A stretch of DNA of 64,000 nucleotides from Clostridia bacterium (GTDB lineage: Bacteria > Bacillota > Clostridia > UMGS1883 > UMGS1540): the NCBI GenBank assembly GCA_017450025.1, contig JAFSYJ010000033.1, positions 1 to 64,000 on the forward strand. The letters are read 5' to 3'. Numbering within the stretch: position 1 is the stretch's first letter; each line of letters begins with the position of its first letter. Positions 35,006-53,252 of the stretch are shown one piece after another. Under the pieces are notes generated by a model that was not told where the DNA came from, did not search any database, and was given only the letters and a program-made list of their open reading frames with translations. The position numbers and the translations under genes were made by a program.

Positions 35006-36112
35006 TTATTTCATTATTATTTCACAAATCCTGTCAACATCATCTTCACTCAGATCCGCATACAGCGGAAGCGTCAGAACTCTGTCGGCAATATATGCCG
35101 CAACAGGTGTTTTGCCTGCGCCTGCAGTCTTTAAATCCCTGTAACATTCAAAGCTGTTTGTAAGCGGATAAAAATACTTGCGCGCCGTAATGTTTTGCTT
35201 TGCAAGCTTTGCAAAAACTTCATCTCTCGTTGCCTTAAAGCCGTCAAACACCGCAGGAAAATACGCATAATTCGACTCAACATCGCGCTGCGGCTTGCAA
35301 AGCTTAATGCCGCTTATTCCGCCGAGATTTTCGCGGTATCTTTCCACGGCTTTTTTGCGCTTTGTAATTTCAGCGTCAAGATGCCTTAAATTGCAAATAC
35401 CCATTGCCGCCTGGAACTCGTTCATTTTGGCGTTTCCGCCGGCGTAAATTATATTCTCGGCGTCACGCATACCGAAGTTTCTCATCTCGTTTAAGGTTTT
35501 AACAAGCGCGGGATCTCTAAGGCAAACTGCTCCGCCCTCAATAGTGTTATAAACCTTTGTCGCGTGAAAGCTGAACATAGAAGCGTCACCGAAGTTTGCC
35601 GCCGATATGCCCTTGTATTTTGCGGCAAAAGCGTGCGCCGCGTCGTAAATCACCTTGAGATTGTGCTTTTTGGCAATCTCGTCGATTTTTTCAACATCGC
35701 AGATATTGCCGTAAACATGAACAGGAACAATGGCGACAGTTTTGCCGGTTATCAAAGCCTCTATTTTGTCCGCGTCAATCGTGTATGTTTCGGGATCAAC
35801 ATCGCAAAAGACGGGCACAAGTCCGTTTCTCGCGATAGCGTGCGTGGTAGAGGCAAATGTAAACGGCGTTGTAATTACCTCCGCACCCTTCGGGAACTGC
35901 ATCGCGGCGATAATATTCTCAAGTGCCAGATGACCGTTTGTGTATAAAACCACATTCGGACAATCCAGATATTCTTCCAGATTGCTCTGTAATTTCTGAT
36001 GCTCAGCACCCATATTCGTCAGCCAATGACTGTCCCATAATTTTTTTATTTCCTCGCAGTATTCCTCGTATGTTGGCATCGAGGAGCGGGTAACAAGAAT
36101 TGTTTTTGCCAC
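35006..36112 (-). CDS. DegT/DnrJ/EryC1-type sugar-nucleotide aminotransferase
   Basis: A 368-residue PLP enzyme that aminates a keto sugar nucleotide. The PLP-lysine motif is SFHATKVYNT followed by EGG; other family blocks are TPFTFASTTHAI, VPVHVYGNICDVE, YDAAHAFAAKYKG and the NAKMNEFQAA substrate region. It is closest in look to VioA/WecE enzymes that convert dTDP-4-keto-6-deoxy sugars to 4-amino sugars, and RmlA/RmlB two genes downstream supply that substrate. The start is GTG at 36112 with AGAGGT upstream. Glucose or galactose configuration cannot be told from sequence. Confidence 0.9.
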   Translation of the reverse strand: MAKTILVTRSSMPTYEEYCEEIKKLWDSHWLTNMGAEHQKLQSNLEEYLDCPNVVLYTNGHLALENIIAAMQFPKGAEVITTPFTFASTTHAIARNGLVPVFCDVDPETYTIDADKIEALITGKTVAIVPVHVYGNICDVEKIDEIAKKHNLKVIYDAAHAFAAKYKGISAANFGDASMFSFHATKVYNTIEGGAVCLRDPALVKTLNEMRNFGMRDAENIIYAGGNAKMNEFQAAMGICNLRHLDAEITKRKKAVERYRENLGGISGIKLCKPQRDVESNYAYFPAVFDGFKATRDEVFAKLAKQNITARKYFYPLTNSFECYRDLKTAGAGKTPVAAYIADRVLTLPLYADLSEDDVDRICEIIMK

Positions 36113-36150: not shown

Positions 36151-37563
36151 TTAAATTGTATCGTTTATCTTGCCAAAGTCTTCGCCGTAACGCTTTTTGC
36201 ATATTGCAAAGAATATAAGGCCGAGAATTGCCCAACCGCCGACGATAATCCATTCTTCTGTTGTCATTGAGCATCCCGAACCGGGAATAAGATATAATAT
36301 TACCATAAGTCCCGACAATACAGATGCCATAATTCCGACAAACTTGTAATGCTTTACCTTGTACGGTCTTTCCAGATCAGGCTCTTTTTTGCGGAGTATA
36401 AGGAATGACATAGCTACCATACAGTAAGCAAGACAGCAGGCAAAGCTTGCAGCGTCAGAAATCCATATAAGCATCGTTCTGCCGAAGAACGGAGCGGCAA
36501 GCGATAAAATGCCTATCAAAAGAAGTGCGTTGACAGGAGTTTTCTTTTTGCTGTGAAGCTTAGCAAATCTCCCCGGAATCATCAATGATTCCGCCATAGA
36601 AAATATCGCTCTGCTGCCGCCTATCAAAAACGAGTTCCAGCTTGTAACAACACCGCAAAGACCGCCGATAATGAGTACCTTCGCCATAACACGACTGTTA
36701 AATACTTTTTCCATAGCGGTAGCGGTAACAAGTCCGTCGCCTTCCATTGCGCTCTGTATAGCACCGCTGTTAAGCGCATAGCCTACTGCAAATACAACAA
36801 GCCCGTAAAAAACAACAGCACATATTATTGAAAGCAAAAGTATCTTAGAAATCTTTTTAAGCGGTATTTTGATCTCCTCTGCGACCTGCGGAATTACATC
36901 AAAGCCAAAAAGGAAAAACGGCGCAACAACAGCGACTGTCATTATAGCTTTGAATGAGCCGAATCCTTCTCCGATAATTACCTGCCCCTCCAGGTTTGAA
37001 GGAGAACCGTTGATTGCAGAAGCGACGACAAGAACAATACCGACTGCGGCTATTGTCACCGTCAGAATTGTCTGAAATACAGATGCCGCCTTGATGCCCA
37101 GTATGTTTACCCCTACAATGCCTATCGTCACAACGCCTGCGACAATTACACCCGAAAGATATACATCAGAGCCTGCAACCGAATACATATATCCGTATTT
37201 GAACGACGGAATTATGTACTGTATAATTGTCGGCAGTGATACTGCTTCAAAGCAGACAACGCCGATGTAACTTAAAATCAGCGCCCAAGTGCAAATAAAA
37301 GATCCCGTCGGGCCGAACGCCTTGTGGCTAAAGACATGCTCTCCGCCTACCTTTGGCATGGCTGGTGTCAGCTCGGCATAGGTCATTCCGACAAAAAATA
37401 TCATTATGCCGCCTATAACAAAACCTATAACAGTTCCTATTACGCCTGCATTTTGTATCCACCTGCCTGATGAGACAACCCAGCCCCACCCAATCATAGC
37501 GCCAAAAGCAACAACTAATAAATCCAAAGAATTTAAAACTCGGTTAAATGATTTACCGGACAT
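36151..37563 (-). CDS. APC-family amino-acid permease
   Basis: About 470 residues with 12 predicted membrane helices, an amino acid-polyamine-organocation transporter. The helix-1 substrate loop AFGAMIGWGWVVSSG is a variant of the family's unwound GxG region, and the MTYAELTPAMPKVGGEHVF block is typical. The ATG at 37563 is used, six bases after GGGAGG; an ATG one codon upstream is possible. It lies inside the polysaccharide locus between an ATP-grasp gene and the aminotransferase. A transporter of this class is unexpected there and hints that an amino acid or amine is a substrate of the locus. Confidence 0.88.
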   Translation of the reverse strand: MSGKSFNRVLNSLDLLVVAFGAMIGWGWVVSSGRWIQNAGVIGTVIGFVIGGIMIFFVGMTYAELTPAMPKVGGEHVFSHKAFGPTGSFICTWALILSYIGVVCFEAVSLPTIIQYIIPSFKYGYMYSVAGSDVYLSGVIVAGVVTIGIVGVNILGIKAASVFQTILTVTIAAVGIVLVVASAINGSPSNLEGQVIIGEGFGSFKAIMTVAVVAPFFLFGFDVIPQVAEEIKIPLKKISKILLLSIICAVVFYGLVVFAVGYALNSGAIQSAMEGDGLVTATAMEKVFNSRVMAKVLIIGGLCGVVTSWNSFLIGGSRAIFSMAESLMIPGRFAKLHSKKKTPVNALLLIGILSLAAPFFGRTMLIWISDAASFACCLAYCMVAMSFLILRKKEPDLERPYKVKHYKFVGIMASVLSGLMVILYLIPGSGCSMTTEEWIIVGGWAILGLIFFAICKKRYGEDFGKINDTI

Positions 37564-37644
37564 CATACGCCTCCCATTATGTATTTTATGCAAATTTAAT
37601 TTTATCATAAAAATGTTAAAACAAAACGGCACTAAATAAACTGT

Positions 37645-38790
37645 TTATTCTGCAAAACAAATAGGCGGTTCTTCCCACCAAAATTGCTTTGTTAAATGCC
37701 ACCCAAAAATTTCCTCAATTTCACTTTGAGACCCCTTATCCTCATACAGCTCCCACATAAAGGCACCGCTTGTATTGCCTTCCATAATGCACCAGCCTTT
37801 TGGCGTAAGCACAAGATCCCAACCAATCATTCTTAATGTATCAAATTTTTTGGCAGCCTGAACGGCAAGTTCAATGGCTTCCTGCCATTTTGGAATTTGA
37901 AATCCAAGTATGCGTTCACCTGTGTCCGGGTGAATATTCATATATTCTCTCATTTCTGTTGCACCGGGAGTATTGACAATACCTGTTTCGGCATCGATTC
38001 CGGCATCAAATGTGCCGTAAATTGCGCTTGTAACAAACTGCCCGAATCTGCCTATCTTAAACCACGGTTTAAATGTTTTTACCTCATCGCCGTTTCTGAA
38101 TGTATTGATCCTCACTCCATTGATGGATTGCGGATGGAATTTTGCAAATTCCGGAACCTGTTCGATAACTTCTTCCAGAACAAACGCCGTATCCTGATAA
38201 TTATTATATTTTTCGGTGTATTGTTTTCCTGTGTTTAACAGCTCGTTAAAATGCCACTCAATAGTGTGGTCACCGGTGATTTCCGTACAAAAAACTCCGT
38301 GCCCCTGCCTAAGGCTGCGGGGCTTTACTACGAATTTTGGATGCTTTTTTACAAAATCGCAAAATATGTCAAAGTCATCCTTTCCATTTATACAAACAAC
38401 ATCTCTTTTATACTCGTCCTTTAACAGAGAATAAGCGATGTATTTATCATTCAACAAATAGACATCTTCTTTTTTATTAAAGCGGTCGCGATACAAGCAT
38501 TTTTTGTGAACGGTTACATATTGACTCACTTCGTCATGTGTTTTGTGCAGCAAATCAAACATAAAGAATTCTTCGGCAGAGCTGCCGTAAGCCCAGTAAT
38601 AATATACGGATAATAAATAATACTTTTCGATTGTTTCCTGATCCTCCGTATTCATTGAATGACGCACTGTATCCTTAATGCTTTTTACGACATTTTCTTT
38701 ATATATCTGCCTGTTTTTATTGATAATTTCTTCTGCAATACTCAATCTTTCCTGTTCGTTTTCAGTAAGCTTAAAGCAAGTTAAATCCAT
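37645..38790 (-). CDS. Sugar-transfer-associated ATP-grasp enzyme, paralogue 1
   Basis: A 381-residue ATP-grasp ligase of the kind found in capsule loci (ATPgrasp_ST type). The ATP site shows FVVKPRSLRQGHGVF, the ligand region VLEEVIEQVPEFAKFHPQS with INGVRINTF, and the metal/closing motif IGWDLVLTPKGWCIMEGN. Such enzymes would join a carboxylate to an amine via an acyl-phosphate. A helical amino-terminal 130 residues precede the fold. GAAAGGAA precedes the ATG. The next gene upstream (38848) is a clear paralogue, so the two arose by tandem duplication and probably act on related substrates. Confidence 0.85.
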   Translation of the reverse strand: MDLTCFKLTENEQERLSIAEEIINKNRQIYKENVVKSIKDTVRHSMNTEDQETIEKYYLLSVYYYWAYGSSAEEFFMFDLLHKTHDEVSQYVTVHKKCLYRDRFNKKEDVYLLNDKYIAYSLLKDEYKRDVVCINGKDDFDIFCDFVKKHPKFVVKPRSLRQGHGVFCTEITGDHTIEWHFNELLNTGKQYTEKYNNYQDTAFVLEEVIEQVPEFAKFHPQSINGVRINTFRNGDEVKTFKPWFKIGRFGQFVTSAIYGTFDAGIDAETGIVNTPGATEMREYMNIHPDTGERILGFQIPKWQEAIELAVQAAKKFDTLRMIGWDLVLTPKGWCIMEGNTSGAFMWELYEDKGSQSEIEEIFGWHLTKQFWWEEPPICFAE

Positions 38791-38847: not shown

Positions 38848-39969
38848 CTATTCAAAATGTAATCCTAAAATTTCTTCCAATTCATTTTTATCTCCGATTT
38901 TTGTTGCGTATTGGTCGCCAAACTGACCGTACAGATTACCTTCCAGCATTATCCAGCCTTTTTCGGTAAGAGCGCAGTCCCATCCGACATAACCTGCGCC
39001 GCTTCCTAAAACATTTGCAAGGTCATTGACAAAACGCACAGCTTCATTCCATTTCGGTACTTGAAAACCGGGAAAGACCACCCCTGTATCAGGATGCCTT
39101 AAATAATACTTGCCGTGTTCTGTTATTCCCTGTTGAGTTACTATACCCGTCTCGGGATCAACCGGGGCAATAATTCCTCCGCTTCCTGCATTATCAACTA
39201 TTGACGAACCTATCCCAACTCGCAAACGCGGATGGAAAAGTATTATTTCTCCTTTTGGAGTTTTAACAGTGGGTATTCTCACTGTATTTACCGACTCCGG
39301 ATGCAATTTAGCCATTTCCTCTGCTTGTTTTACAAGCTCCTCAATAACTACAGGCCCGTCTTTTATGATTCTTTCAAACACTTTCCTGTCATTGTCATAA
39401 GACTTATGTTCGATAAATACACCGCGCCCTTGATGCCCCGTTTGAGGTTTTACGATAAATTCCTGATGTTTCTCTCTAAAACTGCAAAAAGTATCAAAGT
39501 CGTCTGATGAAGAAACTAATATAACATCTCTTTTATAAAAATCTTTAAACTTCGCGTATGTCCTTTCTTTTGATTTAAATAACATAAAATTCTCATCACT
39601 GTTTAATGCGTCATAAAAGAAATAACGGTTTTTATCTGTAATAAACTGTCCGCGGCCACGCGTATTTAAATTCTCAAATCCAAATAAAAAGTATTCATTG
39701 TACATACATCCAAACCGGTGAAGCGAGTATATCATATCAACAATATACTTCTGACGCTCTGTATCATCAATCCCACCGCGAAATTCATCTAAAACCTTTT
39801 CAATCATTTTCATACCTTTTTCATAATAAACAGGATCATTTTCGCGATAATAATTTACATAATTTATTTTTTCTTCTTCATACTTGTCAGCAAGAGTGGC
39901 AAGCCTTTTTTCCTCATCGCTTTCAATTCTCCACTTTGCTATTCTGGAGTTGGTAATTTTAGTGCCCAT
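38848..39969 (-). CDS. Sugar-transfer-associated ATP-grasp enzyme, paralogue 2
   Basis: 373 residues with the same architecture as the neighbour at 37645. Matching blocks are FIVKPQTGHQGRGVF, VIEELVKQAEEMAKLHPES with VNTVRIPTV, and VGWDCALTEKGWIMLEGN. Identity is moderate, so the duplication is old. The ATP-grasp catalytic Arg and Glu/Asn metal ligands are retained in both, so both should be active. AAAAGGGGG lies before the ATG. A 136-base AT-rich gap separates it from the acyltransferase gene upstream. Substrates are unknown; ligation of an amino or hydroxy acid onto an aminosugar is an inference. Confidence 0.85.
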   Translation of the reverse strand: MGTKITNSRIAKWRIESDEEKRLATLADKYEEEKINYVNYYRENDPVYYEKGMKMIEKVLDEFRGGIDDTERQKYIVDMIYSLHRFGCMYNEYFLFGFENLNTRGRGQFITDKNRYFFYDALNSDENFMLFKSKERTYAKFKDFYKRDVILVSSSDDFDTFCSFREKHQEFIVKPQTGHQGRGVFIEHKSYDNDRKVFERIIKDGPVVIEELVKQAEEMAKLHPESVNTVRIPTVKTPKGEIILFHPRLRVGIGSSIVDNAGSGGIIAPVDPETGIVTQQGITEHGKYYLRHPDTGVVFPGFQVPKWNEAVRFVNDLANVLGSGAGYVGWDCALTEKGWIMLEGNLYGQFGDQYATKIGDKNELEEILGLHFE

Positions 39970-40105: not shown

Positions 40106-41095
40106 CTATGCCGGCTTATTTTCTTTTTTACTTCCTGCAATAAGCGATTTAAGCCAAACATATACGGCGGAAATCAGGAATGTTAAAACCAAGCAAAGCA
40201 CCGGCAACATATAAAGAGCTATCGCGCTTCCGTCAATATGTAACGCGGCGTACAGCTTGTCCAGCAAATGCCAGACGGCAGGGTGTATAATATAAACATA
40301 CAGCGAATACTCTGTGCCGACTTTTGTTAAAAACAGACCTTTTCCAAAGTCCTTATTTTTTATTCCCAGCATAAACAAGGCCCAAACCTGCGGAAATGTA
40401 GCAATATTCACCCCAAAATCCCTGCCCAGCAAATATCTTTCAATCGGGCAAAGCACTGTCGAAATAATGACAATTATTATCAATGAGCTTTTTTTAATCC
40501 GTATATTATCCTGATACTTATGAATCCAAAAACCAAGCGCAAAAAACGGAAATCCTTCTATCAAAAAATTGCGATAAAACATATTCGGAATACCATGCCC
40601 CAAGAGATGAAGCCCTTGCGCCAGAAAAACATATAACGCAAAGAACAATGGGATAGCATAGTACGACAGTTTCCTTAAATTTGATTTCTCCAGCAGTGCG
40701 AACAGAATGTAATCGTATAAAAGCGCAAACAAAAACCATAATTGACCGGCAATATAGACCGGAGTATTGAATACAAGCCAATACACAAATTTAGTGAATG
40801 TTATTTCCCCACTGAAGCCGTAAACAGGTGTTATAATAAGATAAAACAACGATGAGAACAGAGTTATTTTTCCTATGTGCAATAATTTTTTTGTGTAGTC
40901 AACTTCACCGTTCGCTTTAAAGCAGAAGTATCCGCTGACCATAAAGAAGAAAGGCACACAAAACCTTGAAACGCATTGGACAAGCACTCCGAGCGTCCCG
41001 GGAAATTCGCAGTGCATAAACACAACGCATATACAAGCAATCCCCTTTATGAAATCAAGACAATAATTTCTGTTTACCGTTTTTTCATTCTGCAT
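40106..41095 (-). CDS. Acyltransferase-3 family membrane protein
   Basis: A 329-residue membrane protein with about ten helices. It starts CLDFIKGIACICVVFMHCEF, carrying the His of the acyltransferase-3 family, followed by CVSRFCVPFFFMVSGYF. Family members O-acetylate or O-succinylate surface sugars. Its start lies two bases after the aldolase stop (GAGGGATAAAGATG), so it is tightly coupled to the C-C lyase gene, which is uncommon. It could use an acyl group made by the neighbouring acid-metabolism enzymes; that is inference. Confidence 0.85.
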   Translation of the reverse strand: MQNEKTVNRNYCLDFIKGIACICVVFMHCEFPGTLGVLVQCVSRFCVPFFFMVSGYFCFKANGEVDYTKKLLHIGKITLFSSLFYLIITPVYGFSGEITFTKFVYWLVFNTPVYIAGQLWFLFALLYDYILFALLEKSNLRKLSYYAIPLFFALYVFLAQGLHLLGHGIPNMFYRNFLIEGFPFFALGFWIHKYQDNIRIKKSSLIIIVIISTVLCPIERYLLGRDFGVNIATFPQVWALFMLGIKNKDFGKGLFLTKVGTEYSLYVYIIHPAVWHLLDKLYAALHIDGSAIALYMLPVLCLVLTFLISAVYVWLKSLIAGSKKENKPA

Positions 41096-41097
41096 CT

Positions 41098-42234
41098 TTA
41101 TCCCTCAAACAACTCTATGTATTTTGATTCATCCTCAATTACGCCGTACGCCTTTGCTCGCATTACTATTTTTTCAGCCCAGCAACGGTGCGGACCAATC
41201 TCATTCATCTTATTTCCGCTGCTGCTTTTTACCACGCCGCCGCTTGTATCAAGAATCTGTAAAGCGTCCTCATAGACCTCTTTTGTAACAGCAAGCATTC
41301 CGTTTACATACGGAATATGCGTCGGGTGAATAATTGTTTTGCCGATAAAGCCGTTTGCTCCGTCAAGTAATAACTCACGCAAAAGCCCGTCAACAGCGTC
41401 ATTGACCAATGTGTTTGTCTTGAAGAGCGACTTGTTTATAGAATTTGGAGTGTCCTCGAATTTCATATTTTTTTTGGCTCTGAAATACTCCCAAACAGGG
41501 CCGGAAACGCTGTAATCATTATGCCGCGTGAACACATTCAATACATCCTTCAGGCAATCTGAAACCGTCATAATATCATAAATAGTATAGTTAATTCCGC
41601 GCCGCATTCCGAACACCGAAGACCAGTCCGTGCCGCCGACTCTGATATTCAAAACAAGATTTTTGTGTCTGTCGAGAATCTCCTTCACACCCATAAGCTC
41701 AGGAATACGCGTTTCAAGATATGCCATTTCCTTGCTCTCAAGTATAGGCATACCGTAAATAACTTCACCGAACTTTTTATTCAGGTACTCCAGGTGTTCA
41801 TAGTAGGCTTCTCCAACCTCTACATTGAATTTGGGGAAATTAAACGCAGTAACCAAATGAATATGTTCAGGCTTAAGCATAGAAGAAAAATGCTTAAACT
41901 GCTCTATATTGCGAACGCGGAAAATAATCAGCGGGATTTCCTCATATTTTATTGTTCCTTTTTTCAGCTCAATGTTCAGCGCGTCAAGCAAATTAATAAC
42001 ATTTTGTTCCGCCTCCGGAACATCTTCTTCCTTGCAGGCATCTTCAAAGCACATAACCATTGATGTAAGACCGGGGTATTTTTTAGTCAAAATCGGCTGC
42101 AAAAAATCCTTTGTCCCGGGCATATACATTGTTGCGCCGAGGCAGTACCGCAACATTTCCCGGTCCGTATATTTATCAAAATTGATAGGCTCTAAAACAA
42201 ATTTGGAACTTGGTTGATAAATATGATGTCTCAT
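41098..42234 (-). CDS. HpcH/CitE-like C-C bond lyase
   Basis: A 378-residue TIM-barrel protein of the HpcH/HpaI-CitE superfamily. It resembles the branch (C-C_Bond_Lyase type) known from the biosynthetic module of tellurium-resistance-type gene clusters. Recognisable blocks are LGATMYMPGTKDFL, MVMCFEDACKEED (acidic metal ligands), VYGMPILESKEMAY-like GMPILESKEMAYLETR, NIRVGGTDWSSVFGMRRG and the C-terminal KTIIHPTHIPYVNGM typical of CitE. Such enzymes form or break bonds between pyruvate/acetyl-CoA-like donors and aldehydes or oxo acids. It is followed at once by an acyltransferase and preceded by a gene relic. The true substrate is unknown. Confidence 0.82.
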   Translation of the reverse strand: MRHHIYQPSSKFVLEPINFDKYTDREMLRYCLGATMYMPGTKDFLQPILTKKYPGLTSMVMCFEDACKEEDVPEAEQNVINLLDALNIELKKGTIKYEEIPLIIFRVRNIEQFKHFSSMLKPEHIHLVTAFNFPKFNVEVGEAYYEHLEYLNKKFGEVIYGMPILESKEMAYLETRIPELMGVKEILDRHKNLVLNIRVGGTDWSSVFGMRRGINYTIYDIMTVSDCLKDVLNVFTRHNDYSVSGPVWEYFRAKKNMKFEDTPNSINKSLFKTNTLVNDAVDGLLRELLLDGANGFIGKTIIHPTHIPYVNGMLAVTKEVYEDALQILDTSGGVVKSSSGNKMNEIGPHRCWAEKIVMRAKAYGVIEDESKYIELFEG

Positions 42235-42235
42235 A

Positions 42236-42355
42236 CTACTTCCTCAACTTTCTCATACATGATTTTCTGTCTTCGTCAATTATATCGATAAGCGAATAGG
42301 CTTCATTTTCTTTTTTTATAAGCTCATCAATTGATTCTGCAAAAACTGTAAAACC
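42236..42355 (-). pseudogene. 39-codon tail of a lost gene
   Basis: Upstream of the lyase an open tail reads GFTVFAESIDELIKKENEAY, then SLIDIIDEDRKSCM and a stop at 42236-42238, two bases before the lyase ATG, the normal spacing for an operon gene. There is no start codon with a ribosome site, and a stop lies in frame just upstream. It is probably the 3' remnant of a deleted gene; the family is unrecognised. Confidence 0.4.
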
Positions 42356-42394
42356 TCACTCATATAATCTCTATTCAGTTGGTTTTTGTGTAAC

Positions 42395-43636
42395 TCAAAG
42401 CTTATCATTTGCCAAACTCAGATCTCTTCTTATAATGCTTTTTCCGTTTTCATCGATAATATCAATTTTCTTCAATACCTGACCAACTTTTTGCTTTATT
42501 TCAAATTCATTATCCCCGCTGACAACTGTGACAAGCACCCTGCTACTGCCTGCGCTCGAAGCGTCAGTTTCGGAATGTTCACGCCTGTAAAAGGAAATAA
42601 TATCAACTAATCCGGATGATTGTAAATCCTCCCATCCCGTAATAGCGCCAATCATACCTGTTTCTGCATAGACCTGATTAACTGCATATATCCGTTTAAG
42701 CGGATGTAACTTTGAAAAATCAGGCGTCAGTCCGATGTAAGAATCTATTGCCGCACTAATAAAATCAAACCCCGCAGCAATTTTCATCGTCTGCGTACTG
42801 ATACCGCCACCGGTTCTCGGAGCAAATTCGATTACCGAAATATCATCTCCTTTGACAATACCCTGAAAGAAAAGCGGCGTATTGTCAAGTTCAAAAGCGT
42901 CTGCAATATTCTTTAACAGCTCACGGGCTTTTTCCTTTGCTTTTTCAGAAATTCTCGCAGGTGCAACCGATGCATAACATTTGATTACCTTGTCTGCCCC
43001 ATCATATGTACTGATTCGTTCTTGAATCATAATTACTGTCGGCTGATGATTAGAAATATATCCATATGCACTTATTTCAATGCCTTCAACATACTCCTCT
43101 GCAATAACCATTCCGTTTCTGCTGTATTGTTTAGCAGCATCAAAGGCAATGACAGCCTCTTCTGCGGTTTCTGCCTTCTTAACACCTTTTGCAGAATTGC
43201 TGTCTGCAGGTTTAATCATAATCGGATAACGCAAATCCTTTGTAATTAATTCATCTGACCGCTCCAGACTGAAATGTCTTGAAGTTTCTATCCCATGTTC
43301 AAGCATTATTGACTTCATACGGACCTTGTCAGTCACATTAAGAGCGGTATCATAACTGTAAGGATGTGGAAGACCTAACTTCTCCGCAACATAACAGCAC
43401 ACAACATTAGCCTGATCCACACTTGTACTTATTACCAAATCTGCGTTCTTATCCCGAGCTATTTGTAAAACAGCCTCTTTATCCAAAGTGCTTTCGCTTA
43501 TATGTTCATCCGCATACTCTTTTGCCGGCGGAGCAATAGAATAATCCACGAGCACAGTTCTATAACCCCTGTTTTTCAATTGACATATTAAATCTATGTG
43601 CGGAACTGTTCCGCCCAAAACAATTGCTGTTTTCAT
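42395..43636 (-). CDS. ATP-grasp carboxylate-amine ligase
   Basis: A 413-residue ATP-grasp ligase of the BacD/PurK-like group. The amino domain starts TAIVLGGTVPHIDLICQLK (Rossmann-like preATP-grasp). The ATP site includes YPIMIKPADSNSAKGV and MVIAEEYVEGIEIS, and the metal ligands lie in VIEFAPRTGGG. A C-terminal extension of about 100 residues is typical of L-amino-acid ligases. It should activate a carboxylate as acyl-phosphate and join it to an amine or amino acid. It lies between the C-C lyase and the MmgE/PrpD gene, so I infer it uses their product. AGAGGG precedes the ATG. Confidence 0.87.
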   Translation of the reverse strand: MKTAIVLGGTVPHIDLICQLKNRGYRTVLVDYSIAPPAKEYADEHISESTLDKEAVLQIARDKNADLVISTSVDQANVVCCYVAEKLGLPHPYSYDTALNVTDKVRMKSIMLEHGIETSRHFSLERSDELITKDLRYPIMIKPADSNSAKGVKKAETAEEAVIAFDAAKQYSRNGMVIAEEYVEGIEISAYGYISNHQPTVIMIQERISTYDGADKVIKCYASVAPARISEKAKEKARELLKNIADAFELDNTPLFFQGIVKGDDISVIEFAPRTGGGISTQTMKIAAGFDFISAAIDSYIGLTPDFSKLHPLKRIYAVNQVYAETGMIGAITGWEDLQSSGLVDIISFYRREHSETDASSAGSSRVLVTVVSGDNEFEIKQKVGQVLKKIDIIDENGKSIIRRDLSLANDKL

Positions 43637-43648
43637 ATTACATCCCTC

Positions 43649-44986
43649 TTATATAATATGGAGAAGCTCATAGAAAGAAGTCTCCAAATTAGATATATAT
43701 TCTATAACTTGTTCGCAATAAGCTACACTTTTTCCTGAATGTGTTGCCATTTGCTTAAATTTGTCTTTCAGTTCCTCAGCGCTAATGGGATTTTCAGGCT
43801 CACCCTTTGGATAAATGACCTTTTTACTAATCTGTTCACCGTCTTTTAAATGTATTACTACTTCGGCAATCCTTTGTGCCGGAACAAGTTTTGAGAATTC
43901 TGCATTCTCTATCACCCGCACTTTTTTGGCAAGGTTAAGAATGTCCTTATTTGCAACAGCTCCCTCAGACATTGCGTCTATTCCACCGGTATGTAAACAA
44001 ATGGCCGCCGCAACACTGTAAGGAATACTCATCTTTGCCGAACTGATCCCGCGAATATCGGTATGATCGTGACCGAACACTGCAAGACCGTATGTAACCA
44101 CATCAATTTGCGCTATTTGATCCGGGTTGACCTGCCTTCCGAGTGAAATTGCAGCTTCAACTGCGGAATGACAATGCCTGCATGAAGCATACGGCTTTTT
44201 GTATATGTCCAAAATAGCATATTCCTTTTTTTGTCTGTCAAACCAACAGCTATCAAAAGAATCCGTCATCACACCCAAGAAGCCTCTCTTCCCGCCAACC
44301 GGATTTATCGGTCCCGAAAATCCACATTGCCCGATTCTTGCCGCAGTTATCGCAGTTTGAGCAGCTTTTCCGGCATTAAAAGGCTTTAATTGAGAAACAT
44401 CATCAATCATTTCAAGTAATCCTGACGCACCGGCAACTGCAGCGGCAATAGTATTTTCAAGCGCTTGTTCGTTATATTTCAAAGAAACCGCAACAGCAGC
44501 GGCAGCTCCGATACACCCGCAAGTTCCTGTTGCATGAAATCCTTTCTTTTTATGTCCCGGCTGAATAGCAGAAGCCAGTCTTACGGTAATTTCATATCCT
44601 GTTAACGCACCGTAAAGGAAATCTTCAAAAGTAATCTTGTATAGGTCAGCAACAGCAAGGAGAGCAGAAAAAACCGGCGCTCCTATGTGTACCATCCCAA
44701 ATCTGCTACCGTCATCAAGCTCAAAATAGTGGGCGGCAATACCGTTCAGCATAGCTGCATCCTCAGCCGTACCGCATTTATCTATTCCAATAATTGCGGC
44801 TTCTTCAGATTCGAGAGGCTTTGTATTCAAATACAGAGTAATTTTTTCCTTCAAATCGGCAGAACCCGCAAGAGTAACGCCAAGATAATCCAGCAGGCAG
44901 CTTTTTATTGTCGAAATAATTTCTGAAGGTATTTTTTCGTTTCTGAGCTCCTTGATCATTTCAACAATCATTTTTGTTTCCGTCAT
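43649..44986 (-). CDS. MmgE/PrpD family protein
   Basis: A 445-residue member of the MmgE/PrpD fold, which includes 2-methylcitrate dehydratase, cis-aconitate decarboxylase and iminodisuccinate epimerase. The fold's central blocks are present: LLDYLGVTLAGS, LNGIAAHYFELDDG, GFHATGTCGCIGAAAA, LKPFNAGKAAQTA and YKPYASCRHCHSAVEAA-like KKPYASCRHCHSA. Conserved Asp, His and Lys residues expected in the active site are visible. Reactions in the family remove water or CO2 from tricarboxylic or hydroxy acids, or epimerise. Within a polysaccharide locus it is unexpected and suggests an acid precursor pathway. GAGGGAG precedes the ATG. Confidence 0.88.
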   Translation of the reverse strand: MTETKMIVEMIKELRNEKIPSEIISTIKSCLLDYLGVTLAGSADLKEKITLYLNTKPLESEEAAIIGIDKCGTAEDAAMLNGIAAHYFELDDGSRFGMVHIGAPVFSALLAVADLYKITFEDFLYGALTGYEITVRLASAIQPGHKKKGFHATGTCGCIGAAAAVAVSLKYNEQALENTIAAAVAGASGLLEMIDDVSQLKPFNAGKAAQTAITAARIGQCGFSGPINPVGGKRGFLGVMTDSFDSCWFDRQKKEYAILDIYKKPYASCRHCHSAVEAAISLGRQVNPDQIAQIDVVTYGLAVFGHDHTDIRGISSAKMSIPYSVAAAICLHTGGIDAMSEGAVANKDILNLAKKVRVIENAEFSKLVPAQRIAEVVIHLKDGEQISKKVIYPKGEPENPISAEELKDKFKQMATHSGKSVAYCEQVIEYISNLETSFYELLHII

Positions 44987-45103
44987 ATTAGCACTCCCTC
45001 ATTAACTTTCTATTCATTGTTAAATTCACTTTCTATTATCTGTAACTCGACGCATATTTCGACAGCTTCTTTAGCGTTATATTTGACATACAATTTCACT
45101 TAC

Positions 45104-46072
45104 TTAAAGGTATCTATAAGGCTCGATCTCTTCTAATTGTCCTTGGTCAAATAATTTTATATTTCTAAAGGCGTCATGCATCATTGCATTAAAGGAATCA
45201 GCCGTCACTCCGGCAATATGCGGAGTAAGAATTACATTTTCGTCATACTTAAGAGGATAATCATCAGGTATAGGCTCTTTAGCGTGCACATCCAAGCCTG
45301 CGTATGCAAGCTTCCCGCTTTTTAAAGCGTTTGAAACTGCAACAGGATCAACAATTTCTCCCCTTGCTGTGTTTACAAGAATTGCACCGTCCTTCATCAT
45401 TGCAAGCGACTCGTCATTTATAAGATTTCTTGTACGCTGGTTCAAAGAACAATGGATAGTTACAATATCCGAATTTGCGAGCAGCTCATCAAGGCAGACA
45501 AACTTCATATTGTTTTCCGACTCAAACTCACGCTCCACTTGCGTAAGGTTATTGTATAAAATATTTACATGAAACGGCTTTAGCAATCCCACAAGAACCG
45601 TTGCAATATTTCCCATGCCGATTATGCCGACAGTTCTGCCTCTTAATTCTCCCGTCAAAACGCCTTGATCCTGTTTCTTCCAGATACCGTTTTTTGTGTT
45701 ACTGTTAACTATCGGTAGCCTTCTGAGGCAAGCAAGCAAAAGAAGTAAAGCGTGTTCCGCCACACTCTCGGAATTTACACCCCTGTTTACATAAAGAGGT
45801 ATTCCCTTTTCTTTAATAGCTTCCAAATCCAAAGCGTCAAGCCCTACCCCTGACCTTTGTATCATTTTCAAATTATCTGCCCTGTCCAGAACATCTTTAT
45901 TTAATTTAAGACGCCCTCCGGCCAAAATATAGTCTGCATTGCCAACTTGTCTTTCCAAAGCTTGTTGACTTGATTCTTCGAGAAACATCAACTCAAATCC
46001 GTCAGGAACATACTTTTTTATTAACCTGATCACAGTCTGTGAATAGGAATTTAATACCAATATTGTCTTCAT
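45104..46072 (-). CDS. D-2-hydroxyacid dehydrogenase
   Basis: A 322-residue NAD-dependent enzyme that reduces 2-oxo acids to D-2-hydroxy acids (or the reverse). The NAD loop is GIIGMGNIATVLV. The catalytic triad is readable: Arg in NTARGEIVD, Glu in DVHAKEPIP and His in LTPHIAGVT. The amino-terminal substrate domain is of PGDH/SerA-like length without the regulatory ACT domain. AGGAGAT precedes the ATG. It is next to the MmgE/PrpD gene (117-base gap), so a shared pathway for an unusual hydroxy acid is plausible. The substrate cannot be read from sequence. Confidence 0.9.
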   Translation of the reverse strand: MKTILVLNSYSQTVIRLIKKYVPDGFELMFLEESSQQALERQVGNADYILAGGRLKLNKDVLDRADNLKMIQRSGVGLDALDLEAIKEKGIPLYVNRGVNSESVAEHALLLLLACLRRLPIVNSNTKNGIWKKQDQGVLTGELRGRTVGIIGMGNIATVLVGLLKPFHVNILYNNLTQVEREFESENNMKFVCLDELLANSDIVTIHCSLNQRTRNLINDESLAMMKDGAILVNTARGEIVDPVAVSNALKSGKLAYAGLDVHAKEPIPDDYPLKYDENVILTPHIAGVTADSFNAMMHDAFRNIKLFDQGQLEEIEPYRYL

Positions 46073-46150: not shown

Positions 46151-47614
46151 TTAATCTTTTTGCTTTCTCTTGCCCACATACCCTTTTAAGAGCGCAAGCA
46201 CATATTCAAAGCTGTCAATATGCAAAATCTTAGACAATGCTATAAAAATCACAGCTCCGAGAGGCACTTGAATTAGCAAAGTCACGAAATCCGAAAGCCC
46301 CAAAAATTGTATCGGATAAATCATAACTCCCATTACGCAAGCCAAAAGAATTCCGGGCAAAATATCCTTGAGCTGCTCGATATATCCGTAATTCATCAGC
46401 TTTTTGTTGGGTGATGCATTTATGATCTGACTTGCTATACTGCTCACTATACTGCCCCATGCAATCGCCTTTACGCTGATAAACATTGTGGCGGCAACAA
46501 TCGCCAGCCCCACAATTTTTTTTGTTACTTCAAGCCGCAAAAACAAATCGCTGCGCCCCATCGCTTTAATGGCGTTAAGATTTGCTGTATGAACAGGGTA
46601 AAACATACATGTAACACATATAATCCGCATAAAGAATACCGATGGCATCCATTTTTCCGTAAGAACAAGCCTTACAAGCGGCTCTCCGATAAACGCAAGT
46701 CCCAAAAGAAGCGGAGCCATAAGATAAGTGCTTGTCTTTATAGAACGCCTTGTCATAGCCTTGACAGCTTCCGGATTGTCCTGATGCTTTGACATTGCAG
46801 GCAAAAGCACACTGTCAATAGACGCGTTTATGTTTTCAACGATAAGGCTTGGCCAGCTTTTTCCTTTATTGTACTGCGCCAAATCAGCTGCCGAATACAC
46901 CTTCCCTATTATAAGTGTTCTTAAGCTTTTATATGCTCTGTCGAGCAAACTTGAGACGAGCAGCTTCCAACCGAAAGAAAACAAGCCTTTAATTCTTTGC
47001 AGCGAAAACATCAGCTTCGGTCTCCACTTAACCATAAACCAAAGGATAACCGTATCAATCACATTATTGCTTAAAGACTGCGTAACAAGCGCCCATACGC
47101 CGTAACCCTTGTAAGCCATCCAAATACCCACAAAAGCAGAAAAAATTGTTCCGCCGAGCGTTGCAAAAAAGAACTTTTTAAACAGCATATGTCTTGAAAC
47201 ATACGATTGCTGAATTCCCTTTACACCGGATACAATAAGCGTAAGACTCATAACACGCACGACAGGTGTAAGATCGGGCATTGCGTAAAAGTTTGCAATA
47301 TGCGGCGCTGCAAAAAACATTATTATGTAAAGCAAAGTACACATGGCGAGATTGAAGTAAAACAAGCTCGAAAAGTCCAAATCGTCAGCATCCTTTTTTT
47401 GTATAAGAGCTACTCCCATACCGCTGTTTATAAAAACATTAAGTATTGAAATAAAAACAGCAACAAGCGCCACTATACCGTAAACAGACGGCTCAAGAAG
47501 TCTTGCTAAAACTATTGAAACAATAAAGCTGACGCCTTGTGAGCCGCACTGCTCCAAAAAGCGCCATATAAACCCAGAAAAGGTTTTTTTTGAAAGATTT
47601 TCAGATTTTCCCAA
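46151..47614 (-). CDS. Polysaccharide flippase, Wzx/MOP type
   Basis: About 487 residues with 12-14 predicted membrane helices, a lipopolysaccharide/teichuronic-type exporter (WzxC/TuaB-like) that flips lipid-linked oligosaccharide across the membrane. The amino motif TFSGFIWRFLEQCGSQGVSF and ARLLEPSVYGIVALVAVF are typical. I place the start at TTG (47614): GAGGTG lies six bases upstream and the protein then begins right before the first helix. A longer frame to 47710 would overlap the upstream gene. It works with the polymerase at 54814 and the initiating transferase at 60729. Confidence 0.9.
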   Translation of the reverse strand: MGKSENLSKKTFSGFIWRFLEQCGSQGVSFIVSIVLARLLEPSVYGIVALVAVFISILNVFINSGMGVALIQKKDADDLDFSSLFYFNLAMCTLLYIIMFFAAPHIANFYAMPDLTPVVRVMSLTLIVSGVKGIQQSYVSRHMLFKKFFFATLGGTIFSAFVGIWMAYKGYGVWALVTQSLSNNVIDTVILWFMVKWRPKLMFSLQRIKGLFSFGWKLLVSSLLDRAYKSLRTLIIGKVYSAADLAQYNKGKSWPSLIVENINASIDSVLLPAMSKHQDNPEAVKAMTRRSIKTSTYLMAPLLLGLAFIGEPLVRLVLTEKWMPSVFFMRIICVTCMFYPVHTANLNAIKAMGRSDLFLRLEVTKKIVGLAIVAATMFISVKAIAWGSIVSSIASQIINASPNKKLMNYGYIEQLKDILPGILLACVMGVMIYPIQFLGLSDFVTLLIQVPLGAVIFIALSKILHIDSFEYVLALLKGYVGKRKQKD

Positions 47615-47678
47615 TTTTTGCACCTCTGTATTATGCTTATGACAATTTACATCAATAATCTTATATAGACAATGTCTG

Positions 47679-48794
47679 CTATTTTCTTTCAGGCAGGCTG
47701 TCATAGACATTCTGCCATTTTTTTACGCCTACTTCCAAATGTGTTCTTTCGTAAATATATTTACTGAATTTTTCCTCGTTATAATCGTCTTGCGGTTTGC
47801 AAAATTTATTAAAATCAGACTTTGCAATATCGTTATAATCGCAAATTGACACTCCGTTATCGTGAAAATAACCAAACATCGGATTATCAGTCTGCATATA
47901 TATTTTCGTTTTTTGCCATATAAGGCTGTTAATATTTCCTAATCCTATTTGTCTCTTTGTATTAAATATTGCTATATCTATTTTATCTAACAATTCAAAA
48001 TATGCTTTTCTTTCCATCATTTGACGAAGCGCCAAAGTTTTTTCTTTCCCGAATAATGAAACGGCGTATTCTTCAACCTTATCCGCATATTCTTTGTCAC
48101 TACCGTAACTTAGCGGCATAAAAATAACAATATTTTCATCTTTGAATTTTTCTAAATCACTCAGCGTCTTAATATGATTATGTTCCTTTTTTGCATTGTT
48201 GCCTACTTGAATATAAACAGGAGAACCACTATCATGCACAGCCAGCTTTGGCTTATCATAGATATTATTATAATATTGAGGTATTATCGTTCCGCCATTG
48301 TAAGGCGCATAAAAAACTTTTGCCTTTGAATTTGGGAATTTCTTTTTGTATATATCCACATCGGGCGGAAAAATAGCCACTACCGTATTGACGGATTTTC
48401 TCACCCTGTTTCTTAAGGCTTCCGTAACTTTGGAATTTCTTTTGGTGTATAAATCTCCTCCCCACTCAATCCATACAAATTTTTTTCTGAAAATTGATTT
48501 GGGAAGTAAACAAGCATATCTGCCGAAATCTTCTAAGCAGCCCAGCGAGTGCAAAACAATATAATCATACTCGCGTATATATTTTATCAGCGTTCTTATT
48601 TTGTCAAAACGGCTTCCGTCCGATAAAAATTCTGTCTGCGCTATATTGCATTGCGGAGAAATCAGCTTTCCTTTGTTTTTTGATGAAGTTATGTAGCAAA
48701 TTTCATGCTGACCGTCATTAAAAAATTTATCATAATATTTCACAACACCTTTTGTAAAATTGGTATTTCTCATTAAATGCAGTATTCTTTTCAT
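47679..48794 (-). CDS. WecF-like 4-amino-4,6-dideoxyhexose transferase
   Basis: A 371-residue glycosyltransferase of the GT56 type (TDP-Fuc4NAc:lipid II transferase, WecF). Family-like blocks are MRNTNFTKGVVKYYDKFF, VWIEWGGDLY, VYIQVGNNAKKEHNHI and FNTKRQIGLGNINSLI. It would add a 4-acetamido-4,6-dideoxyhexose from dTDP to a lipid-linked intermediate. This fits the RmlA, RmlB and aminotransferase genes at the end of the locus. The gene and the next two upstream are clearly more AT-rich than the rest of the locus, suggesting separate acquisition. AAGGAGAG precedes the ATG. Confidence 0.85.
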   Translation of the reverse strand: MKRILHLMRNTNFTKGVVKYYDKFFNDGQHEICYITSSKNKGKLISPQCNIAQTEFLSDGSRFDKIRTLIKYIREYDYIVLHSLGCLEDFGRYACLLPKSIFRKKFVWIEWGGDLYTKRNSKVTEALRNRVRKSVNTVVAIFPPDVDIYKKKFPNSKAKVFYAPYNGGTIIPQYYNNIYDKPKLAVHDSGSPVYIQVGNNAKKEHNHIKTLSDLEKFKDENIVIFMPLSYGSDKEYADKVEEYAVSLFGKEKTLALRQMMERKAYFELLDKIDIAIFNTKRQIGLGNINSLIWQKTKIYMQTDNPMFGYFHDNGVSICDYNDIAKSDFNKFCKPQDDYNEEKFSKYIYERTHLEVGVKKWQNVYDSLPERK

Positions 48795-48872: not shown

Positions 48873-49598
48873 TTAAATATTATTCTGATTATTGTTTTTA
48901 TATAGATTCGTTGCAAAATCAAGGTCTGATTCGGTCGTGATTTTAAAATCTCCGGCACGCGCCACTATTGTTTTCACCTTATGTCCTAACATAACCATCA
49001 ACTGAGAAGTGCATGTAACTTTTCTTAACAGTTGTTTATCAGCTTTTATACACTCATTATACAATAACTCAAGATTAAAACCAGACGGAGTGTGTATCTC
49101 AAATAAAGATGTTCTATCCAATGATTCTTCTAAAAAAGTGCCGTCTTTTGAAAGGAGAACCGTATATGTAACCGGCTTGACAACTGTGGAAAGCTTATTG
49201 ATCAGTGTTTGTTCTATACAATCATAAACCGTTTCATCTGGTGTTAAAGGTCTAACAGAATCATGATAGATAATAATATCATCTGAATGTATCCCCTTAT
49301 GTAAAACAATATGATACATGATATTCAAAAAAGAATCAATTCTTTCTTGACCCCCATCAAGAATAACAATACGTTTTAAATCATCTTCCAAAAAAAATTT
49401 TTTAAACAAATCCTTTGTATATTCCATCCATTCTTTATTAACTGCAACATAAATTTCGTTAATCCTTTTATTCTTTAAAATAGGTCTCATTGTCAAAATA
49501 ATTATGGGTATTCCATCAATAGTTATAAATTGCTTTGGTATTGTCGAACTTTTAAAGCGTCTACCCGTGCCTCCTGCTAAAACTGCTCCGTATATCAC
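48873..49598 (-). CDS. IspD/TarI-family cytidylyltransferase, copy 1
   Basis: About 241 residues of the CTP-dependent IspD/TarI group, which makes CDP-methylerythritol, CDP-ribitol or similar CDP-alditols. The CTP loop is YGAVLAGGTGRRFKSS with the following PKQF; the substrate-side block is IYHDSVRPLTPDETVYDC. The start is GTG (49598), seven bases after AAAGGGG. A second homologue lies at 53253 and a CDP-glycerol-transferase-like gene lies just upstream, so a role in phospho-alditol decoration is more likely than isoprenoid synthesis. It is in the AT-rich islet. Confidence 0.85.
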   Translation of the reverse strand: MIYGAVLAGGTGRRFKSSTIPKQFITIDGIPIIILTMRPILKNKRINEIYVAVNKEWMEYTKDLFKKFFLEDDLKRIVILDGGQERIDSFLNIMYHIVLHKGIHSDDIIIYHDSVRPLTPDETVYDCIEQTLINKLSTVVKPVTYTVLLSKDGTFLEESLDRTSLFEIHTPSGFNLELLYNECIKADKQLLRKVTCTSQLMVMLGHKVKTIVARAGDFKITTESDLDFATNLYKNNNQNNI

Positions 49599-49842
49599 AA
49601 AAAAACCCCTTTCTGTCCATTCAAACACATTTCCAATCCGTTGTCAATAATAGCACTATTTAAAAGATTACTATGCGTTATCTTTTTTAGCCCTTAGTTG
49701 ACATATCATAACTTAATAATATATTCGATTTTTATTTCTAACAAACAATAATTCCATTTTCTGAGAACGCTGCTCCATTATTCATCTTTCCCTTGCAAAA
49801 CAACTTTGTTGTGATTTCTTATAACTGTATAGGATTTTTTGT
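49599..49842. other. AT-rich spacer inside the polysaccharide locus
   Basis: About 245 bases with no supported gene. TTGACA followed after 17 bases by TTGAAT on the minus strand (near 49650-49622) could be an internal promoter for the cytidylyltransferase gene. Confidence 0.4.
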
Positions 49843-51102
49843 TTAAGAATCCTTCCAATCCTTTAATAATCTATTTATAATTAATTCTCCCGCCGATTTA
49901 ATATTTTGTCTTAAAATTTTTTGAGTATATGTTATTCTGTAATTTTTTTTATAATCATTTCCACGAGATATATCTAATATCAGATCTTCCACGCTTTCCC
50001 AGTTATTGACATTGTACATACCGTTAAAAAGTGGCTTATATTGTTCAGAAAAATTCTGACTAGTGCCAAAATAAATTATTGGTTGACCAACTAAAAGAAA
50101 TTCCGCAATCGTAGAACTGTAATCTGTCACCACAATATCAGCTGAAATTAAGGTATGGTGATAATCGTTTGATTCATCAAGAGTAACATTATTTGTTGAG
50201 GAGATTATATCCATGTATTCTTTTATCTCTTCCTTGTTTAATAAACCATACTTAATAAATCTGTCAAACAAAATCGGATGTGGCCTAATTACAATTTCAT
50301 AATCAGAATGTTTTTCTGCAAAATCAAGTATTCTGTCTTTAAACAACATAAAACTACTTGGCTCATGTCCATTTGCTTCATTTTCTGGTGTTGTCCATCT
50401 CGGGAAATAAGCAATTCTTTTAATTTTCTTTTTCTCCAAACAGTCATTTTTACTCTTTAAAAGATCAAAACGGGGAAAGCCCAAAGAATAAACTTTAACT
50501 CCTTCAAGTTTTTCAAATAAAAATAACTTTTTTTTGCAATACCTATATCCTATAGGTCCTTCAGCAAAAAAATAGGATATATGGGCGAGGAGACATAAAT
50601 TGAACGCTGTTTCCAGAACCACTCCATCAATAAAACAATATCCATACGGAACGACACATAGCTTTGAAAAGTTAGCCATTTCATGAAATTTAAACCCATC
50701 AGGATATTCTTCATTATATGGTATTCCCAAAAAAATATAGTCTGGATTAAACTTTCTGAGGTCTACAAAAGAACCGTCATTTTCATAACAACTTATTGCC
50801 CTGTCTCCTGCTATACCTTTGCAAAAATCAAGAACATTCGAATTATCCGTATTTTTTTTATTCTTTGACCTATCCGGAAGAGCTATCAAATATGTATCAA
50901 TACACTTGTTTTTGTTTGCTTCAGTATATACAGATTCAACTGAACTGAATATATTGGTTCTTGAAACCAAAAACAAAATAACACATTTACTGTTTTTAAC
51001 TTTAGAATGTTTATAGTGATATTTTCTTTTATAGTTAATAATTTTAATATTATCCTTTATTACCGTCGGAATCATTTTTTTTATTATACAAATTAAATGC
51101 AT
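49843..51102 (-). CDS. CDP-glycerol glycerophosphotransferase-like enzyme
   Basis: A 419-residue GT-B-type polymer phosphotransferase (TagB/TagF/TarL group), which transfers glycerol- or ribitol-phosphate from a CDP donor onto a polymer. The C-terminal blocks are IVIRPHPILFDRF (the family RPHP) and IVVTDYSSTIAEFLLVGQPI (TDYSS), both needed for binding the CDP-alditol phosphates. The amino part is divergent. The ATG at 51102 is used (AAGAGGTG six bases upstream). Together with the IspD/TarI homologue it indicates phospho-alditol groups on the polymer. It is very AT-rich. Confidence 0.87.
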   Translation of the reverse strand: MHLICIIKKMIPTVIKDNIKIINYKRKYHYKHSKVKNSKCVILFLVSRTNIFSSVESVYTEANKNKCIDTYLIALPDRSKNKKNTDNSNVLDFCKGIAGDRAISCYENDGSFVDLRKFNPDYIFLGIPYNEEYPDGFKFHEMANFSKLCVVPYGYCFIDGVVLETAFNLCLLAHISYFFAEGPIGYRYCKKKLFLFEKLEGVKVYSLGFPRFDLLKSKNDCLEKKKIKRIAYFPRWTTPENEANGHEPSSFMLFKDRILDFAEKHSDYEIVIRPHPILFDRFIKYGLLNKEEIKEYMDIISSTNNVTLDESNDYHHTLISADIVVTDYSSTIAEFLLVGQPIIYFGTSQNFSEQYKPLFNGMYNVNNWESVEDLILDISRGNDYKKNYRITYTQKILRQNIKSAGELIINRLLKDWKDS

Positions 51103-51155
51103 ACAAAACACCTCTTAAATGAAAAAATACAATGTGTTATTTTAAGCATTTTAAT

Positions 51156-52178: not shown

Positions 52179-52189
52179 TATGTTCTCCC

Positions 52190-53239: not shown

Positions 53240-53252
53240 ATGTAAAACCTTC

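Follow-up and report, generated by a model that had tools for sequence, protein, structure and literature searches.

Anantharaman, Iyer, and Aravind reportedly described, in 2012, a Ter-dependent biosynthetic module that contains a C-C bond lyase of family PF15617. In surface glycans, dTDP-4-amino-4,6-dideoxyhexoses are N-acylated. Here, we analyzed a 64,000-nucleotide stretch of a Clostridia bacterium genome (GenBank assembly GCA_017450025.1, contig JAFSYJ010000033.1, positions 1 to 64,000; referred to as the window), in which a PF15617 lyase lies in a polysaccharide locus together with an ATP-grasp ligase, an MmgE/PrpD family enzyme, and a 2-hydroxyacid dehydrogenase. These four genes belong to a larger, previously undescribed enzyme set, a conserved cassette with about seven members, and form the half of it that lies in the glycan locus. 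Our proposal in full, put forward as a possibility rather than an expectation, is that a branch of Ter-type lyases and a new family of ~300-amino-acid TIM-barrel proteins (TIM300) belong to an undescribed pathway that would place a dicarboxylate-derived acyl group on surface glycans. This pathway would have been exchanged across at least four phyla of bacteria from gut and rumen. In the genome studied here it would be split in two, with TIM300 and a fumarase-like pair also serving a citrate-lyase-type operon.

With the Ter module, the locus shares a lyase of the same family, including its catalytic and family-specific residues. However, the Ter partners are TerD, StiP/PELOTA, PRTase_2/TRSP, and HAD proteins, whereas those of the cassette are MmgE/PrpD, fumarase-like proteins, the dehydrogenase, and TIM300. 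With amino-sugar acylation, it shares the presence of RmlA, RmlB, a DesI-like aminotransferase, acyltransferases, and ATP-grasp in one locus, although no described system was found that builds the acyl group by a PF15617 lyase, MmgE/PrpD, and TIM300. The citrate lyase operon citDEF, found on another contig of the same genome and followed there by TIM300 and fumarase-like genes, encodes a lyase of the same superfamily; in contrast, neither CitD nor CitF accompanies the window lyase, which itself is not CitE. The itaconate/methylsuccinate cluster ict-ich-ccl-mmgE likewise combines a CitE-superfamily lyase with MmgE/PrpD (PMC12290011). The fold of the window lyase is close to that of citramalyl-CoA lyases, and in one related locus (L024) a CoA transferase lies beside the lyase. 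Yet the window lyase scores far under the RipC equivalog cut-off (19.7 versus 375 bits), and its neighbors include ATP-grasp and glycan genes instead of a CoA transferase or an itaconyl-CoA hydratase. A literature search found no paper on PF15617 and none that places MmgE together with ATP-grasp in a polysaccharide locus.

Four adjacent genes with a lyase of the Ter family

The preliminary description had named four adjacent genes in one direction, and both the open reading frames (ORFs) and the Pfam matches agree with it. All four ORFs are free of internal stops and run on the minus strand. In 5'-to-3' order, they encode the D-2-hydroxyacid dehydrogenase (45104-46072), the MmgE/PrpD family enzyme (43649-44986), the ATP-grasp ligase (42395-43636), and the lyase (41098-42234), with intergenic gaps of 117, 12, and 160 bp, respectively.

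The lyase matches PF15617 (C-C_Bond_Lyase) at 372.9 bits (cut-off, 28.4) over positions 2 to 320 of 320, and this is the only Pfam family that it matches. It is identical to Ter-type members at E64, D65, R106, R108, E166, D203, R211-R212, W248-E249, H303-P304, N344-E345, and H349. In our alignment it keeps the residues of the Mg and 2-oxo-acid site of the superfamily, as well as the PF15617-specific RR, SGPVWEYF, and NKMNE motifs, which are common to the Ter-type lyases and not to CitE. Neither PF03328 nor citE was matched in the profile search, and a PDB sequence search with the lyase profile reached RipC only at an E value of 0.012. The structure model (pLDDT of 79, weak at residues 249 to 296) has a CLYBL/malyl-CoA-lyase-like fold. 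Its best match is human CLYBL (5vxs_C; VIA-align Z of 24.2, root mean square deviation of 3.0, 278 aligned residues), followed by malyl-CoA lyases (Z of 22 to 23), RipC (18.8), and CitE (17.8). The nearest named relative is found in Lachnospiraceae FE2018 (93%). Viral contigs contained no relative of the lyase or of TIM300. A second PF15617 match in the genome, on contig C22, proved not to be another lyase of the window type but the CitE subunit.

Ter-type lyases of the same class are 30 to 49% identical to the window lyase and sit with TerD, StiP/PELOTA, PRTase_2/TRSP, and HAD genes (loci L101 to L110). The cassette lyases form a clade separate from them (branch support of 99, branch length of 1.36; quick tree method, in which the Ter rows have long branches). 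The expected membership in the tellurium-resistance-module family is thus borne out by the profile score and the shared residues, as is a position outside the ordinary citrate-lyase/HpcH clade by the profile searches and the residue alignment. Family membership, the identical family-specific residues, and the 30 to 49% identity would be compatible with a lyase and an ATP-grasp enzyme that help to make, here for the glycan, the nucleoside-like metabolite proposed for tellurium-resistance systems. We consider this improbable: TerD has no match in the 87.5%-complete draft genome (1.32 Mb), the window neighbors of the lyase have no PRTase_2/TRSP, StiP, PELOTA, or HAD Pfam match, unlike those in the Ter loci, and the partners are dicarboxylate enzymes rather than phosphoribosyl ones. 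Given the separate clade and the genome without TerD, the cassette is not a Ter module, even though its lyase belongs to the Ter family, and the Ter link suggested earlier is not supported for this organism. PF15617 lyases thereby gain a second, far simpler genetic context, without Ter machinery, in which to test their reaction. In two Ruminococcus albus loci (L093 and L099), a cassette-clade lyase stands alone, with no usual partner within 10 kb.

The MmgE/PrpD enzyme matches both domains of its family (MmgE_PrpD_N, 169.8 bits; MmgE_PrpD_C, 112.8 bits). Its residues H86, H100, H151, K201, and K264 are conserved in 58 to 59 of 59 cassette homologues. This His/Lys set corresponds to the residues that bind the four-carbon dicarboxylate substructure of the substrate in characterized members (PMC12290011). 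It does not reach the NCBIfam equivalog cut-offs for 2-methylcitrate dehydratase PrpD (47.6 versus 950 and 38.7 versus 575). In the dehydrogenase, both Pfam domains exceed their cut-offs (PF02826, 2-Hacid_dh_C, 189.4 bits; the other, 84.1 bits; together the catalytic and NAD domains), and no specific equivalog is reached, the best being PGDH (210.3 versus 454). The ATP-grasp enzyme (PF13535, ATP-grasp_4, 50.7 bits) belongs to the carboxylate-amine/thiol ligase superfamily, reaches no NCBIfam equivalog, and is distant to PylC, PurT, and Ddl.

A conserved cassette across gut and rumen bacteria

A scan of public genomes yielded 121 loci with relatives, of which 80 were kept, and all their ORFs were called and clustered. 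Cassette counts refer to the 77 loci in which a cassette-type lyase was called, with PrpD, ATP-grasp, and dehydrogenase counted within 10 kb. Most of the loci come from metagenome-assembled genomes, and the partner counts are lower bounds, due to contig ends and to the greedy ORF caller, which in G+C-rich loci (L024 and L083) calls antisense ORFs on top of real genes. TIM300 is the most frequent partner (64 loci), followed by the fumarase-like alpha subunit and ATP-grasp (57 each), the fumarase-like beta subunit (54), PrpD (53), and the dehydrogenase (41). Other partners are a DegT aminotransferase (42), ATPgrasp_ST (26), Wzx (24), Acyl_transf_3 (20), a Ppd-like enzyme (15), and an aldo-keto reductase (14).

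All 375 core partner genes (375/375) share the strand of the lyase, although their order varies (52 arrangements). The association thus persists through rearrangement, and the adjacency of the four window genes is not due to chance. An assembly of unrelated cargo in a glycan locus might be imagined, since such loci collect genes by transfer and the window lacks three of the usual partners. The recurrence in 77 loci, on one strand and in many orders, already refutes this, leaving it a negligible probability. The adjacency noted for the four-gene core is therefore genuine, but the core itself comprises about seven enzymes, three of which are absent from the window and present on another contig. 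The idea of a parallel module tied to glycan loci fared well, with glycan-type neighbors found in 62 of the 77 loci.

The cassette occurs in Bacillota, Bacteroidota, Fibrobacterota, and Lentisphaerota of the gut and rumen. The lyase tree mixes these phyla, placing, for instance, the nearly identical lyases of L069 (Lachnospiraceae) and L075 (Bacteroidales) side by side, which indicates horizontal transfer of the cassette between phyla, although mis-binned metagenome contigs could add to the mixing. Within the class, a cassette-type lyase (at least 56% identity) occurs in 5 of 391 genomes. All five have TIM300, itself found in 11 of the 391 (hypergeometric P of ~6e-9); in most of the five the two genes are side by side, so this test largely measures linkage.

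Several Bacteroidales loci add a KAS III enzyme and a short-chain dehydrogenase, and L075 (2103-9211) also encodes an acyl carrier protein, an AMP-ligase, and a citrate-type transporter. The KAS III, short-chain dehydrogenase, acyl carrier protein, and AMP-ligase genes fit the building of an acyl group.

TIM300 and the fumarase-like pair on a second contig

TIM300 shows a mean column identity of 81% across phyla, without a match in Pfam or NCBIfam or a useful hit in a PDB sequence search. Its model is a TIM barrel predicted with good confidence (pLDDT of 86), for which Foldseek and VIA returned only general TIM barrels (best Z of 15.8). Comparisons by hhalign with U32 and HMGL-like (DRE-TIM) families gave probabilities of 53% for U32, 45% for an oxaloacetate-decarboxylase-type barrel, and <1% for LeuA. 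TIM300 is thus a highly conserved enzyme family so far without a name. The fumarase-like alpha (PF05681) and beta (PF05683) proteins are the two subunits of a hydro-lyase resembling class I fumarases, enzymes for which hydration of mesaconate to citramalate is common (PMC4682846).

The window locus contains neither TIM300 nor the fumarase-like pair, and no remnants of them (best E value, 0.25). In the same genome, however, TIM300 and the fumarase-like alpha and beta genes lie in a row on contig C22 (34365-36686), with TIM300 75% and alpha 61% identical to the copies of locus L112. The window is otherwise nearly identical in synteny to L112 and L028, these three being the core genes that are missing. 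In L028, the order is Wzx, ATP-grasp, a gene of cluster c17, ATP-grasp, dehydrogenase, PrpD, TIM300, lyase, acyltransferase, and fumarase-like beta and alpha, followed by ATPgrasp_ST, permease, DegT, RmlA, and RmlB; L112 is similar. In the window, the order is Wzx, dehydrogenase, PrpD, ATP-grasp, lyase, acyltransferase, two ATPgrasp_ST genes, permease, DegT, acyltransferase, RmlA, and RmlB.

On C22, the three genes come after citD, citE, and citF. CitD and CitF pass their equivalog cut-offs, while CitE fails (303.1 versus 443.4). This operon is resident: it also occurs in a lyase-free genome of the same order, with TIM300 92% identical. We infer that the resident TIM300 and fumarase-like pair stand in for the genes missing from the window.

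Viewed as a separate locus (L111, 8536-13690), the C22 region is a citrate-lyase-type operon that runs on into TIM300 and the fumarase-like pair, and its substrate may be other than citrate, e.g., citramalate. Distant TIM300 homologues (~50% identity) occur in L130, L132, and L134 with the fumarase-like pair, malic enzyme, and MmgE/PrpD. L130 also has Ldh_2, a TctCBA transporter, and RraA; these operons, assigned by eye, may represent an undescribed catabolic pathway. In L133 (9408-10346), again as judged by eye, a TIM300 homologue (34% identity) lies beside PanB-like and tetrahydrofolate one-carbon genes.

A variant without the dehydrogenase

The dehydrogenase is present in 41 of the 77 loci and the Ppd-like enzyme, which resembles phosphonopyruvate decarboxylase, in 15, 14 of which also have the aldo-keto reductase; no locus has both the dehydrogenase and the Ppd-like enzyme. 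This exclusion has a Fisher P of 1.6e-6, a value that ignores relatedness and overstates independence, since the lyases of the Ppd loci group together in a single clade. In the simplest reading, both variants use the same kind of 2-oxo acid, either by reduction or by decarboxylation plus reduction. The swap of the dehydrogenase for a decarboxylase and a reductase suggests that a 2-oxo acid is an intermediate of the pathway. Together with the two-locus split, it offers a concrete handle on the chemistry.

The Ppd-like enzyme scores 416.7 bits against TIGR03297 (cut-off, 312.5), and known phosphonate pathways follow a logic of alternative reduction or decarboxylation, which the choice seen here resembles. 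A phosphonate or sulfonate pathway could thus be considered, with phosphonopyruvate as the 2-oxo acid; either the dehydrogenase would reduce it, or Ppd would decarboxylate it for reduction by the aldo-keto reductase. We regard this as very unlikely. No match to PEP mutase (PF13714) was found in five Ppd-variant genomes (G402, G403, G404, G407, and G409; drafts, perhaps incomplete), which speaks against phosphonopyruvate, and PrpD, the fumarase-like pair, and the lyase have no role in a simple phosphonopyruvate route. A literature search found no paper on Ppd in polysaccharide loci.

Biosynthesis of a glycan substituent or catabolism

According to our proposal, the product of the cassette is a small hydroxy acid built on a C4-dicarboxylate core, and ATP-grasp joins it to an amino sugar; chemistry and attachment being derived from the genes, we give this somewhat less than an even chance. 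First, PrpD and the fumarase-like pair would isomerize or hydrate a dicarboxylate. TIM300 and the Mg-dependent lyase would then make or break C-C bonds to yield a 2-oxo acid, which the dehydrogenase would reduce to a D-2-hydroxy acid; in the other variant, the decarboxylase and reductase would give a shorter hydroxy acid. In outline, these three steps are probable. In a fourth step, RmlA, RmlB, and the DesI-like aminotransferase would supply an amino sugar, e.g., dTDP-4-amino-4,6-dideoxyglucose, to which ATP-grasp, perhaps with the acyltransferase, would couple the acid; flipping and polymerization of the resulting unit would follow. For this joining, flipping, and polymerization, the chances fall a little short of even. 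The acid is plausibly a branched C5-C6 compound of the citramalate/mesaconate kind: the CLYBL-like fold, the PrpD residues, the mesaconate chemistry of fumarases, and the CoA transferase of L024 favor a branched dicarboxylate, with none of them identifying it. If correct, the proposal points to an acid substituent on the surfaces of gut and rumen bacteria, a type of feature recognized by hosts, phages, and antibodies.

The genomic context bears on whether the cassette builds or degrades. The glycan-type neighbors and the synteny with Wzx, DegT, RmlA, and RmlB favor biosynthesis, as does the frequency of ATP-grasp enzymes, which are ligases not needed for degradation. The DegT subfamily of the window (at least 40% identity) occurs in 29 of the 77 loci. 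Several points weigh against this interpretation. Only about a dozen loci have RmlA or RmlB close to the cassette. At least eight complete or partial cassettes (e.g., L095, L097, L082, L091, and L113) have no clear amino-sugar locus around them; glycan attachment is thus not a universal feature. The distant operons combining TIM300, PrpD, and fumarase-like genes look catabolic (malic enzyme, TctABC transporter, RraA), and no characterized member was found for the lyase clade or TIM300.

These points, in part, fit a catabolic or fermentative module, in which an imported di- or tricarboxylate (itaconate, mesaconate, citramalate, aconitate, or similar) would be isomerized by PrpD and the fumarase-like pair and cleaved by the lyase. 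Reduction by the dehydrogenase or the decarboxylase/reductase pair would then serve as an electron sink, and the position in glycan loci would reflect a shared hot spot of horizontal transfer. Transporters do lie beside the cassette: the amino-acid permease in the window, an SSF symporter in L020, L024, and L041, and a CitMHS/DASS citrate-type transporter in L075. Moreover, CoA transferase genes directly follow the lyase in L024, L095 holds a stand-alone cassette with a LysR regulator and no glycan genes, and the TIM300 and fumarase-like genes of this genome come after citDEF. Against this stand the glycan neighbors and the ATP-grasp ligases named above. On balance, we lean, close to evenly divided, toward biosynthesis of a glycan substituent and hold catabolism, the main rival, to be less likely, though worth serious attention.

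The surrounding glycan locus

The neighborhood of the four genes, all on the minus strand, is that of a polysaccharide locus. Just upstream of the dehydrogenase, a Wzx-type polysaccharide flippase (46151-47710; PF13440, 327.3 bits) occupies the same position as in L032, L043, and L112. Directly after the lyase follow a membrane acyltransferase (40106-41095; PF01757, Acyl_transf_3, 107.1 bits) and two copies of ATPgrasp_ST, a sugar-transfer-associated ATP-grasp (38848-39969, 148.4 bits; 37645-38790, 134.7 bits; PF14397). The next gene encodes the amino-acid permease family transporter (36151-37632; PF13520, 134.0 bits), which recurs with the cassette at 58 to 70% identity in L028, L043, L049, and L063. 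The DegT/DesI-like sugar-4-aminotransferase (35006-36112; PF01041, 334.4 bits) scores 279.1 bits against TIGR04427, under the cut-off of 650. It is followed by a second membrane acyltransferase (33821-34990; PF01757, 59.5 bits), the glucose-1-phosphate thymidylyltransferase RmlA (32924-33802; TIGR01207, 454.9 bits; cut-off, 360.65), and the dTDP-glucose 4,6-dehydratase RmlB (31869-32927; TIGR01181, 495.9 bits; cut-off, 365.1). As judged from these matches, RmlA and RmlB of the window would complete a predicted pathway for a 4-amino-4,6-dideoxy sugar.

The locus further encodes a Wzy-like protein, glycosyltransferases, LicD, and IspD-like enzymes. Part of these lie at 48873-54817 on the minus strand, where two IspD-like cytidylyltransferases accompany a short-chain epimerase/dehydratase, LicD, and a glycerophosphotransferase-like protein. 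The IspD-like copy at 53253 exceeds the cut-off for D-ribitol-5-phosphate cytidylyltransferase. This region suggests a CDP-ribitol-type or other phospho-polyol branch of the glycan. Next to a sugar transferase at the start of this locus, an ordinary HpcH/HpaI-type aldolase (61366-62193, minus strand; PF03328, 47.8 bits) is paired with a branched-chain-type transaminase (59795-60712, minus strand; PRK06606, 283.8 bits; cut-off, 279), and the product of this pair may be another unusual acid or amino acid.

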